Shown one piece after another: positions 33,458-37,684 of a stretch of 40,290 nt of DNA. Origin of the DNA: Candidatus Nitrosopumilus sp. (GTDB lineage: Archaea > Thermoproteota > Nitrososphaeria > Nitrososphaerales > Nitrosopumilaceae). Each line of letters opens with the position of its first letter. Within the stretch, counting starts at the first letter, position 1. The DNA is taken from the NCBI GenBank assembly GCA_021268355.1, contig JAJETY010000011.1, positions 1-40,290 of the forward strand. The letters are read 5' to 3'. The translations under genes and the position numbers were made by a program. The notes below the pieces were generated by a model. It worked only from the letters and a program-made list of their open reading frames with translations. It was not told where the DNA came from and searched no databases.

Positions 33458-33979
33458 ATGAAAAAAAAGCGATCTATTCTGATCTCATTTTTACTGCTAT
33501 TTTTGATAGTTGGGGCAGATCAGGTTTATGCCCACTCGATGTTTAATTCTGCTGAAAAGTTTGATTCAGGCTACAGGGTTCAAGTTGCAACTGCTCCAGA
33601 ATTTCCTCAGATCGACGAACCATCAGAATTCATGATCAGAGTAACTGAGGGATTTGATTATGAAGAGATTGACAGATTTACTATGGGAATCAAGATTTTT
33701 TACAATAATCAGCAAATTGATACGATTCCGCCAACAGCAATAGAGGGCTCCCATTGGGACTTTGATTATGTTTGGAGGAATTCAGGAAATCATATTGTAG
33801 AGATTTACTTGTATGATATGCCAAACAACCCAGAGACTATAACATACAAATTCAATATGGGAACTCAGAGTCCATTTGGACAGATTTTCATTGTAGCTAT
33901 AACTATTGGAGCATTATCAATGACTGGAGTGTTTTTGTACATCTATATCCCAAAAATTTTCAAAAAATCTAGACTTTAG
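33458..33979 (+). CDS. Secreted, C-terminally anchored protein at oxidase locus
   Basis: The 173-residue product has a basic N-terminus and signal peptide (1-25, ending DQVYA), a beta-rich extracytoplasmic domain (26-140) and a C-terminal membrane helix (about 147-167) with a basic tail. After cleavage the mature chain would begin HSMFNSAEKF, with histidine first. That is the position used for copper in CopC-like proteins, so a copper-delivery or oxidase-assembly role is possible. It overlaps the heme A synthase gene tail to tail by 11 bases. Confidence 0.75.
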   Translation: MKKKRSILISFLLLFLIVGADQVYAHSMFNSAEKFDSGYRVQVATAPEFPQIDEPSEFMIRVTEGFDYEEIDRFTMGIKIFYNNQQIDTIPPTAIEGSHWDFDYVWRNSGNHIVEIYLYDMPNNPETITYKFNMGTQSPFGQIFIVAITIGALSMTGVFLYIYIPKIFKKSRL

Positions 33980-34412
33980 TTTCTATAGATTTACTTGAAA
34001 TTCTAAATGCAAACAATGTTGTCAACAACACCACGGAGAATAACAAGATTCCAATTCCCAAATGAATTGCAACTAGAACTGCATGAAGTTTTGTATCAAT
34101 TACAAGTGCGCCAAGTGTAATCTGAGTAATTACAAATATTGTTGCCAGTGTACTTGTGATCTTAATTTTTTGGTCAGCTCTTTTGTTAAGAAAACTTGCA
34201 ACCATTGTGGCAATTACCAAAGTACCAGTAGTGGCAGCTGCCAATCTATGAATCCACTCTATAAGATATTCCTCAGAGGGCATTATGCCATTTGGACATA
34301 GTGGCCATTCAGGACATGTTAGTCCTAGTCCAGCTGCTGAGATATATCCACCTAAGAACATTAGTGAATACAGTACTATCATTGTTGATAATGCTAGATA
34401 TTGAATTGCCAA
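33969..34412 (-). CDS. ctaA: Half-size heme A synthase (CtaA/COX15 family)
   Basis: The enzyme oxidises the heme O methyl group to make heme A for the oxidase. At 147 residues with four membrane helices it is half the usual eight-helix protein, as in some other archaea. Visible ligands and motifs are H55 (EWIHRLAA), the cysteine pair C33/C39 in LTCPEWPLCPNG, and H110 and H117 near the third helix (KLHAVLVAIHLG). Two copies may assemble as a dimer. It is the last gene of the oxidase locus, two bases after the cupredoxin gene. Confidence 0.87.
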   Translation of the reverse strand: MAIQYLALSTMIVLYSLMFLGGYISAAGLGLTCPEWPLCPNGIMPSEEYLIEWIHRLAAATTGTLVIATMVASFLNKRADQKIKITSTLATIFVITQITLGALVIDTKLHAVLVAIHLGIGILLFSVVLLTTLFAFRISSKSIETKV

Positions 34413-34414
34413 GA

Positions 34415-35377
34415 TTATTCTACTATGAAATTACCAACCATGCCTTGTAATGCATGTCCAGGAACTGTACAGATGTAGTAGTAAGTACCAGGTGCACCAG
34501 CAGTAAATGTAGTGCTGCCACTTTCACCAGGTTTTAGAGGATTTGATGCTGCTGCAATTTCAGAGCCCCAAATTACATTGTTAAAGTCTTCAGGATTTGA
34601 TACAACTCCAAATGCATGGAATGATTTACCGTTATTTGCTGAAGTAATTGTAACTTCATCGCCAGAATTTACACGGATTTCAGGGTTGTTGCCATCCTCA
34701 CCAGGTAATGCGTTAAATGCTAATGTTCTAAAATCACTAGATTCTACAAAGTCCAAAGTAAAGTCATGAGATACTCCTGTTGGAGCTGCTGCAACACCAG
34801 AACTACCACCGCCTTGTGCTGGACCGACAATAATTTCACCAACCATGCCTTGTTCTCTGTGACCAGGAACTGTACAGATGTAATAGTATGTTCCCTCCTC
34901 ACCTGCAATAAATTCAGAAGTTCCACTTTCACCTGCTTTGAGAGGATTTGATGCAGATGCAACTTCAGTACCAGGAATAATTCCTCCAAAGCCTTCACTG
35001 TCTTTAGTTACACCAAATGCATGGAATGATTTTCCATCGTTTACCACGTTAAAGATTACTTTATCACCAACATTCATTTCGATTGTTGGGTTTACTCCAG
35101 GTTCATCTATCATTGCATTAAATGTCAAAGATCTAAAGTCAGGTGATTCAAGAAATGATAAATCTTGTGTCATGGTCTTTCCAGTTTGTGCTGCTGGTGC
35201 TGCGACATCAGAACTTCCTGCCATCATGGCAACAACTGGAGCTGGTTCTGAAATCCAATAGTCCCAAAGTGAAAAGAAGATTGCTCCACCTACAACACAG
35301 ATTCCCAACATGATTGCCATCATTTTACCAGTTCTTGCTGGTGTTGTTCTGTAGATTGTTTGTGTATCGTGACTCAT
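34415..35377 (-). CDS. Membrane-anchored double cupredoxin
   Basis: The 320-residue product has an N-terminal membrane helix (about 19-39) and two plastocyanin-like domains, each with full type 1 copper ligands: H119, C168, H173 and M178, then H254, C303, H308 and M313. The domains are tandem duplicates (YYYICTVPGH in both) joined by a Gly/Ser/Ala linker. It could carry electrons to the neighbouring terminal oxidase in place of cytochrome c, as proposed for ammonia-oxidising archaea. It lies between oxidase subunit I and heme A synthase genes. Confidence 0.93.
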   Translation of the reverse strand: MSHDTQTIYRTTPARTGKMMAIMLGICVVGGAIFFSLWDYWISEPAPVVAMMAGSSDVAAPAAQTGKTMTQDLSFLESPDFRSLTFNAMIDEPGVNPTIEMNVGDKVIFNVVNDGKSFHAFGVTKDSEGFGGIIPGTEVASASNPLKAGESGTSEFIAGEEGTYYYICTVPGHREQGMVGEIIVGPAQGGGSSGVAAAPTGVSHDFTLDFVESSDFRTLAFNALPGEDGNNPEIRVNSGDEVTITSANNGKSFHAFGVVSNPEDFNNVIWGSEIAAASNPLKPGESGSTTFTAGAPGTYYYICTVPGHALQGMVGNFIVE

Positions 35378-35389
35378 TTCATTAATCTC

Positions 35390-36916
35390 CTAGTGTGATG
35401 GATTCTTTGCCTCAAATGGATAATAGTATTTGCCTCCAACACCAAATGGATCCTCTGGGTTTGCAGGTTTTCCTTTTCCTGAGCTGTAAACCATGTTGAC
35501 CAAAAAGATCACCATACTGACACCGATAATCATTGCACCAATTGATGCAATTTGGTTCATTGCAATCCATTCTGGAATTGGTGGATAGTCAAAGATTCTT
35601 CTTGGCATTCCATATAGACCAAGTACGTGTTGAGTAAAGAATACGAGTACAGTTCCGATGAAAGACATTACAAAGTGAACTTTACCCATTGCTTCATTGT
35701 ACATTCTTCCTGTAACGTATGGATACATGTAGTAAAGATAACCAATTGAACCAAATGCAATTGTGCCCATGACAAAGAGGTGGAAGTGTCCAACTACCCA
35801 GTATGTGTCGTGGGTTGTAAAGTCTAATGGCATTGCGGCATTTGCGACACCACCGGCACCTGCTGAGAAGAATAATGCGATTCCACCAACTGCCCACATC
35901 ATTGGAGTTGAGAATCTGATTCTACCATTCCACATTGTTGCTACAAAGTTAAACACGTGAAGTGCTGATGCTGGAACTGCTGCAAGAGTTCCTACCATGA
36001 ATACGGTCTTTTCAGTAAATGACATTCCGGTTGCATACATGTGGTGTGCCCATGATGAGAAACCAACAATAGATAATAGAACAAATGCAAAGATACCTGA
36101 ACCATAACTGTGAATTGGTTTTCTAGAGAATCTTGGAATAATTTCATACATCATACCAATTGCTGGAATGACGAGAACGTATACTTCTGGATGGAATGTA
36201 AACCAGAACAAGTGGGCATATGCAATTGGATCTCCACCCATTGCAGGATTAAAGAATCCAGTTACACCTAGTCTATCAGTTAACAGCATCAACAATGCAG
36301 CTGCAAATGTTGGAATTGCGACAAGGATGATTAATGAAGATGATAAGAATGACCAAGCCAATAGCGGTACTTGGCCAATGGACATGTCGGGGTGTTTACA
36401 TTTGAGAATTGTTACTACAAAGTTTATTGAACCAAGAACTGATGAAATACCTAAAATCTTTAGTCCAAATATCCACATGTCGGCTGCTGGACCTGGAGCA
36501 CTGATAATTGAATATGGCGGAGTTGCATACCATGTAAAGTCTGCAAAGCCTAACCAAATGAGAGCTCCTGATGGAGGAATCATCCAAAATGCAATTGCAT
36601 TTAGTTTTGGATAAGCCATGTCTTTGTATCTGACCATAATTGGAACAAAGTAGTTACCAACTGCAGATGCAAATGGAATGATAAACAAGAAGATTAGAGT
36701 AGTTCCGTGAACTGTAAAGATTCTGTTAAAGGTCATTGCATCGCCAATGATTTGTGCTCCTGGTAAGAATAACTCAGCTCTGATTGCAAGTGCTAGTGCA
36801 CCACCCAAGAACAAGAATCCCAGAGACATGATAAGATAAAGTAAACCAACATCAGTGTGATGGGTTGAGAACATTATTTGCCAAATTGGACGTGGTTTTT
36901 GTAATTCTAGGACCAT
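35390..36916 (-). CDS. coxA: Heme-copper oxidase subunit I
   Basis: This 508-residue catalytic subunit of the terminal oxidase reduces O2 at the heme-copper centre and pumps protons. Ligands are visible: H70 and H379 for the low-spin heme, H377 for the high-spin heme, and H242, H291 and H292 for CuB, with the cross-linked tyrosine Y246 (HPEVY). The D-channel residues D99, N106 and E243 are conserved. The position of the K-channel lysine holds histidine (SALHVF), by eye alignment. It is preceded by the subunit II genes and followed by the cupredoxin gene. Confidence 0.95.
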   Translation of the reverse strand: MVLELQKPRPIWQIMFSTHHTDVGLLYLIMSLGFLFLGGALALAIRAELFLPGAQIIGDAMTFNRIFTVHGTTLIFLFIIPFASAVGNYFVPIMVRYKDMAYPKLNAIAFWMIPPSGALIWLGFADFTWYATPPYSIISAPGPAADMWIFGLKILGISSVLGSINFVVTILKCKHPDMSIGQVPLLAWSFLSSSLIILVAIPTFAAALLMLLTDRLGVTGFFNPAMGGDPIAYAHLFWFTFHPEVYVLVIPAIGMMYEIIPRFSRKPIHSYGSGIFAFVLLSIVGFSSWAHHMYATGMSFTEKTVFMVGTLAAVPASALHVFNFVATMWNGRIRFSTPMMWAVGGIALFFSAGAGGVANAAMPLDFTTHDTYWVVGHFHLFVMGTIAFGSIGYLYYMYPYVTGRMYNEAMGKVHFVMSFIGTVLVFFTQHVLGLYGMPRRIFDYPPIPEWIAMNQIASIGAMIIGVSMVIFLVNMVYSSGKGKPANPEDPFGVGGKYYYPFEAKNPSH

Positions 36917-36953: not shown

Positions 36954-37382
36954 TCAAGAGTGTGGTTCCTCCACAATCAATGTTCCACGCATGTTATAGT
37001 GAATTAGTCCACAATATTCTCTGCATTGAATATCATGTTCCCCTACTGCATCAGGTGCAAACCACACAGTATTGACTCTACCTGGAATTGCATCCATCAA
37101 AACTACATAATCGTGAATGTTAAAGGAATGGTTTACATCTTTTGAATGAATTTCAAATTTGTAGGCTTTACCTTTTTCAACATGTAACTCACCAATTTCT
37201 TTTGTACCATCTTCATGCTCAAAAGTCCAGAACCATTGTTGTCCGGTTACTTTGATAATCTCAGCACCTTCTGGAACATGTTCTACTAGTCTTTCTGCTT
37301 CCCATGCTTCAGCACCGACCCAACACATAAGGGCAATTACTACTCCTACGTAAATCCATTCAGGCCAGTTAGAGTGTGCCAT
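36954..37382 (-). CDS. coxB: Oxidase subunit II, CuA domain half
   Basis: The 142-residue product has one membrane helix (about 9-25) and the CuA domain, with ligands H85, C120, E122, C124, H128 and M131 (CREYCGLIHYNM). VTGQQWFWTFEHEDG is the usual subunit II motif that accepts electrons. Normal subunit II has two membrane helices; the first is in the adjacent gene at 37383-37643. Its ATG follows that gene's TAG directly and in the same frame. Together they make a complete subunit II of about 228 residues. Confidence 0.9.
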   Translation of the reverse strand: MAHSNWPEWIYVGVVIALMCWVGAEAWEAERLVEHVPEGAEIIKVTGQQWFWTFEHEDGTKEIGELHVEKGKAYKFEIHSKDVNHSFNIHDYVVLMDAIPGRVNTVWFAPDAVGEHDIQCREYCGLIHYNMRGTLIVEEPHS

Positions 37383-37643
37383 CTACCAATCAGTCCCCTC
37401 ATATGGTGTTGGTTTTGCTTTTGGATGAGATTCTCTAAATCTCCATACTTGCCAAATAATAGTACCAGATACTACAGCACCTACAACAAATGCTATAGTC
37501 ATCATTCTAAAGAATAAGTTCCAAATAACGACCCTACGATCAAGATATTCACCAGGTTCAGCTCCTGCAGCAAAAGCGTATTCAACAGCAGGAACTATAA
37601 CTAAAACCGCCAATACTAGGAATAACCCAACTAAAGTCTTCAT
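37383..37643 (-). CDS. Oxidase subunit II, N-terminal membrane half
   Basis: The 86-residue product has a signal-like hydrophobic start (about 4-25, ending EYAFAAG) and one membrane helix (about 45-67) followed by WRFRESHPKAKPTPYEGTDW, which resembles the segment after the first membrane helix of subunit II. It ends with TAG and the CuA half starts with the next codon, in frame. The stop is either a true gene split or read through. A TATA box lies about 35 bases before its ATG; it is the first gene of the oxidase operon. Confidence 0.82.
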   Translation of the reverse strand: MKTLVGLFLVLAVLVIVPAVEYAFAAGAEPGEYLDRRVVIWNLFFRMMTIAFVVGAVVSGTIIWQVWRFRESHPKAKPTPYEGTDW

Positions 37644-37671: not shown

Positions 37672-37684
37672 CTATTTAAAAGTT
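37672..37684 (-). promoter_or_regulatory. TATA box of the oxidase operon
   Basis: AACTTTTAAATAG on the minus strand is centred about 35 bases before ATG 37643. It lies just downstream of the phosphatase gene, so the oxidase locus probably starts its own transcript here. Confidence 0.5.

Follow-up and report, generated by a model that had tools for sequence, protein, structure and literature searches.

Two neighbouring genes almost certainly encode subunit II of the A-type (aa3-like) terminal oxidase in this Candidatus Nitrosopumilus as separate polypeptides, the outcome of an old and fixed split in which the contact between the genes in a shared reading frame is an accident of spacing. The window, by which we mean the whole 40,290-nt stretch of DNA analyzed, comes from a draft assembly of 73 contigs and a 98%-complete genome. 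A reading made from the sequence alone (the sequence-only reading) had reported that an N-terminal membrane half ends in TAG at position 37383 and is followed directly by the in-frame ATG of a CuA half. We confirmed this arrangement, with no base between the two open reading frames, and found both on the minus strand, which the sequence-only reading had not stated. In the order of transcription, the features of the locus are:

37673..37682, minus strand: TATA-like box (CTTTTAAATA), some 30 nt ahead of the start of the N-half gene
37383..37643, minus strand: N-half gene, 86 aa, stop TAG at 37385-37383
37380..37385, minus strand: junction TAG-ATG, 0 nt between the genes, same frame
36954..37382, minus strand: CuA-half gene, 142 aa, start ATG at 37382-37380
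35390..36916, minus strand: subunit I (CoxA/CtaD, A-type, HPEVY motif; PF00115, E 5.8e-136; TIGR02891, E 2.8e-154)
34415..35377, minus strand: tandem double cupredoxin (plastocyanin-like), 320 aa (PF00127, E 2.7e-15)
33969..34412, minus strand: CtaA/COX15-like heme a synthase (short form), last in the cluster (PF02628, E 1.1e-17)

Read 5' to 3' on the minus strand, the junction is ...GGACTGATTGG TAG ATG GCA CAC.... The N half consists of a signal-peptide-like hydrophobic segment (EYAFA-A) and membrane helix I of an oxidase subunit II, and it ends within the cytoplasmic loop (RFRESHPKAKPTPYEGTDW). The CuA half contains membrane helix II and the CuA cupredoxin domain with its ligands complete (DVNH ... 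CREYCG..H..M). Each half contributes one of the two membrane helices that precede the CuA domain, and the break falls in the cytoplasmic loop that connects helix I to helix II.

Profile comparisons placed both halves within subunit II. The CuA half matched PF00116 (E 2.6e-14) and positions 57-193 of the TIGR02866 CoxB model (E 8.5e-28, 97.3 bits), and the N half of the window matched positions 9-50 of the same model, which correspond to helix I (18.6 bits). The two halves therefore match consecutive parts of the canonical fused CoxB, which is one gene there and two genes here, and it is because the gene is divided that neither half alone reaches the curated whole-protein score of 147.7 bits. 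Among ammonia-oxidizing archaea (AOA), 16 of 16 N halves in alignment A1 matched the N-terminus of the CoxB model (best E 7.6e-5), and a profile comparison of the N half with helix I of fused non-AOA subunits II (hhalign) gave Prob 95 and E 3e-8, in a short, 32-column match of no more than moderate strength at the sequence level. A hypothetical 229-residue read-through chain was colinear with subunit II of the Thermus caa3 oxidase (2yev_B, E 3.6e-16). Foldseek searches with an AlphaFold model of this chain returned 2yev_B and other A-type subunits II as top matches, and the low confidence of the model (pLDDT 60.5) makes this weak support only; the rmsd was about 8 A, such that the placing of the helices relative to the CuA domain is not predicted. 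Taken together, the two halves correspond to an ordinary subunit II of an A-type cytochrome oxidase. The earlier claim that they jointly provide one normal subunit with two helices and all CuA ligands was thus borne out, because both match CoxB and the read-through chain aligns colinearly with 2yev_B. Both genes are under purifying selection relative to sister genomes, with dN/dS of 0.05-0.21 for the N half and 0.01-0.09 for the CuA half. The CuA motif was present in 86 of 88 split homologues, the two exceptions being one regex mismatch and one truncated locus. Based on these comparisons, we assign the N half as helix I of subunit II.

We surveyed the junction across AOA genomes. Relatives of the CuA half are encoded in 239 of 300 genomes of the class, and among the matches listed for the window's own family there was no frame of fused length, with open frames of at most 182 aa. 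Junctions were read at 89 split loci, of which 85 are from AOA and four from non-AOA genomes; the group names attached to the coded families (f3, f7, f8 and others) are inferred. All 85 scorable AOA loci were split, with the N-half gene directly upstream of the CuA gene in each. Over the 89 loci, the distance from the N-half stop to the CuA start ranged from -8 to +26 nt, the stop was TAA (43), TAG (42) or TGA (4), and the start was ATG (74), TTG (13) or GTG (2), with a few start codons picked by rule and possibly off by some codons. The comparison with other genomes that the sequence-only reading had proposed therefore reveals a split that is fixed, with a stop identity and a frame relation that vary. 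In-frame junctions occurred at 24 of the 85 AOA loci, which does not exceed the 1 in 3 expected and thus indicates that in-frame adjacency arises by chance. The two genes switched between frame relations no fewer than 14 times on a tree built from 83 loci. The closest relatives, with CuA halves 95-98% identical to that of the window, carry TAGAAATG, in which the junction is TGG-TAG-AA-ATG and the CuA gene lies in another frame. Relative to the nearest of them, the window has lost one codon as well as two bases between the genes. The in-frame TAG-ATG that had been singled out as the remarkable feature is accordingly the result of a short deletion between the genes that sister genomes lack, and we interpret it, from the sequence comparison, as an accidental spacing of two genes. 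Separately, the CuA half of one locus (L056, in the single-contig genome G103) has an in-frame TAA as codon 49, just past residue 48 and at the conserved QQW motif. The gene is otherwise intact, and the TAA is probably a sequencing error, or else a real disruption.

For the stop codon, the sequence-only reading had offered a genuine split, readthrough or recoding, and an artefact, and only the split withstood the comparison with out-of-frame relatives, varied stops and a second metagenome-assembled genome (MAG). If the TAG were read through or recoded, at least part of the protein would be a single-chain subunit II, and this idea draws on the in-frame TAG-ATG with no base lost, on the normal subunit II that would be produced and on a moderate over-representation of TAG at in-frame junctions. 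Among the 85 AOA loci, TAG ended the N half at 17 of the 24 in-frame junctions versus 25 of the 61 out-of-frame junctions (Fisher p 0.017, all loci). Without forced overlaps the p value rose to 0.20, and the excess was not significant with independent pairs, which allow for relatedness. Because significance was lost once overlaps or relatedness were handled, we rejected TAG enrichment as a sign of recoding. Independent pairs hardly ever went the other way, in a test with low power. Against readthrough, the two genes overlap or are out of frame with each other at about 70% of AOA junctions. These include the junctions of the nearest relatives, whose genes occupy different frames and therefore could not be joined by readthrough; the in-frame extension is thus not conserved. 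The variation in stop codon and the recurrent changes of frame relation also argue against it. Furthermore, the best match to pyrrolysyl-tRNA synthetase (PylS) in the 98%-complete genome scored 28 bits, below the cut-off of 178, and TAG serves as an ordinary stop in the window, where it ends 8 of the 24 open reading frames of at least 200 aa. We consider readthrough or recoding extremely improbable. The draft state of the assembly might have permitted a naturally fused gene into which mutation or faulty assembly introduced the stop, but this idea has next to no likelihood. The uninterrupted subunit II that such an error would have left in close relatives was found in none of them, and a fused homologue was absent from every AOA genome examined. 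The exact TAG-ATG junction recurs in a second, independent Nitrosopumilus MAG (G203 / VMDM01 isolate 32_1), so it is no assembly slip, and the start context together with the independent frames of relatives points to two genes. In all nearest relatives the two genes are out of frame with each other, which already refutes an error.

We also weighed whether the CuA half could be a complete single-helix subunit II that merely lies beside an unrelated accessory membrane protein. One-helix subunits II function in ba3 oxidases, and Pfam does not recognize the N half as COX2_TM: in a search of the 16 aligned AOA N halves, this model matched one member (E 0.056), and we rejected both the COX2_TM and the DUF2391 labels for the N half as too weak. 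In contrast, the full set of aligned AOA N halves matched CoxB, the N half of the window did so at helix I and ahead of the match of the C half, and the profile comparison with fused subunits II, which paired the N half with their helix I, agrees with this placement. The N half is, moreover, always upstream of and adjacent to the CuA gene in AOA, and its pairing with a CuA gene extends to other Thermoproteota, all of which makes an accessory protein very unlikely. We therefore retain the interpretation of one subunit II divided between two genes.

We rejected the possibility that the split is an invention of the AOA, as HMT-like, f8, f35, f31, f66 and Sulfolobaceae-like genomes are also split. 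Within the class, several non-AOA members (L090-L102 without L101) encode a fused subunit II, 190-245 aa long. The split occurs in HMT-like small genomes (f7/g34; L101, L113 and L114) and in f8/g36 (L111), in the latter alongside a separate fused A-type oxidase of the same genome (L092). Outside the class, the three genes for the N half, the CuA half and subunit I occur in f35, f31 and f66, with their order mostly unchanged. A SoxM-like fusion of subunits I and III, with a cytochrome b next to it, suggests that f40 (L253-L260) is Sulfolobaceae; in this family, a SoxH-like CuA gene is followed by a SoxI-like protein, and the N-terminal part of the latter aligns with N halves; the SoxH and SoxI names are assigned here by gene order. 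Comparison of the AOA N halves (A1) with the A6 set, which includes the SoxI-like rows, gave Prob 94 and E 8.6e-8 (hhalign), and the A6 set matched helix I of fused subunits II at Prob 93. In subunit I trees, the A-type oxidases with a split subunit II (19) did not intermix with those that have a fused one (20), with the fused group forming one side of a fully supported branch. When bacterial and haloarchaeal rows were added, the split rows grouped together weakly (67/21). A single origin of the split is favoured on this weak support, and the AOA and the SoxM-like group may have split separately. The two added rows with a readable neighbouring subunit II, Gloeothece and Paenibacillus, are both fused, which makes fission the likelier direction of change, a direction that comes from these rows and not from the tree itself. 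We lean slightly toward one ancient fission that marks an entire lineage of archaeal A-type oxidases, comprising those of all AOA, the HMT-like group, Sulfolobales SoxM, and Thermoproteales-like and other Thermoproteota; the SoxI-like protein, on which little has been described, and the AOA N half would then each be the missing helix I.

Divided subunits II are found in other systems. In mitochondrial cox2 (cox2a/cox2b), which is divided in several lineages, fission of subunit II leaves two proteins that rebuild one subunit, as we propose here. In algae and apicomplexans, the break in cox2 lies after helix II on the intermembrane-space side, and COX2A keeps both helices, whereas the break here lies between helices I and II. 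The Sulfolobales SoxM oxidase also resembles the present case: a one-helix CuA protein of about 148 aa (SoxH-like) adjoins a small membrane protein (SoxI-like), an A-type subunit I is in the same cluster, and that subunit I belongs to the same broad part of the tree. The SoxI-like protein (L253-L260) shares the two hydrophobic segments of the N half but has an extra C-terminal helix pair ending in YKxYxxD, and its gene follows the SoxH-like gene, unlike the N half of 86 aa, which is encoded upstream. Subunits I and III are also fused in SoxM, which is not the case here. B-type ba3 oxidases (Thermus, Aquifex) combine a one-helix subunit II with a small separate peptide, IIa, at the position of helix I, an arrangement proposed to stem from a gene that divided between the helices (PMC3128077). 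In those enzymes, IIa has 34-78 aa and a helix polarity opposite to that of helix I (PMC3128077). The N-half sequence is colinear with helix I, with the positive stretch RFRESHPK at its C-terminal end, and this colinearity with subunit II suggests homology to helix I in the same sense; subunit I here is A-type and stands apart from the B-type rows on the tree.

BN-PAGE proteomics detected the N. viennensis CoxB, which is listed as having a single transmembrane helix (PMC10030591), and coxA1 and coxB are listed as AOA complex IV genes (PMC7785015); the passages concerned in these two papers make no mention of a partner helix for AOA CoxB. SoxH and its Pyrobaculum counterparts have been treated as subunit II, with SoxI unmentioned (PMC3512248). 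Our search of the open literature returned no description of a split subunit II in AOA. With a two-part subunit II, models of AOA complex IV that contain a single coxB miss a conserved small membrane protein, and so do proteomics searches for complex IV subunits, given that Pfam does not recognize the N half. The split versus fused state also provides a structural character that sorts archaeal A-type oxidases into lineages.

The genes around the pair are consistent with an oxidase operon. Subunit I scored 514 bits against CtaD and begins 37 nt beyond the end of the CuA half with GGAGGG ahead of it, and 12 nt separate its end from the tandem cupredoxin, which is a probable electron carrier of the same operon. 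The position of the TATA-like box suggests that the N-half gene opens the operon. Searches with bacterial consensus sequences found neither a sigma-70-type promoter on the relevant strand nor a terminator between the halves, and an Rfam search at the junction returned nothing. In the arrangement that we propose, both halves would be read from one operon, and a ribosome that stops the N half would start the CuA half at the touching codons, probably by translational coupling, with subunit I translated next from its own GGAGGG. The N half would enter the membrane by its signal-like segment, with helix I keeping its RFRESHPK end inside, and the CuA half would insert with its N-terminus inside and its CuA domain outside. 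Because the break falls in the cytoplasmic loop, neither half would need a new topology or a new targeting signal. From homology, adjacency and conservation, we infer that the separately translated halves co-assemble, which would have them pack side by side on subunit I and rebuild a normal subunit II. Electrons would then pass from cupredoxin carriers to CuA and on to heme a in subunit I. In family f3 (L073, L074, L081 and L086; inferred Nitrososphaeraceae), an additional blue-copper (plastocyanin-like) domain extends the C-terminus of the CuA half, by which a cupredoxin electron carrier is apparently fused to the oxidase; in the window, the cupredoxin is encoded farther downstream by a gene of its own (34415-35377).
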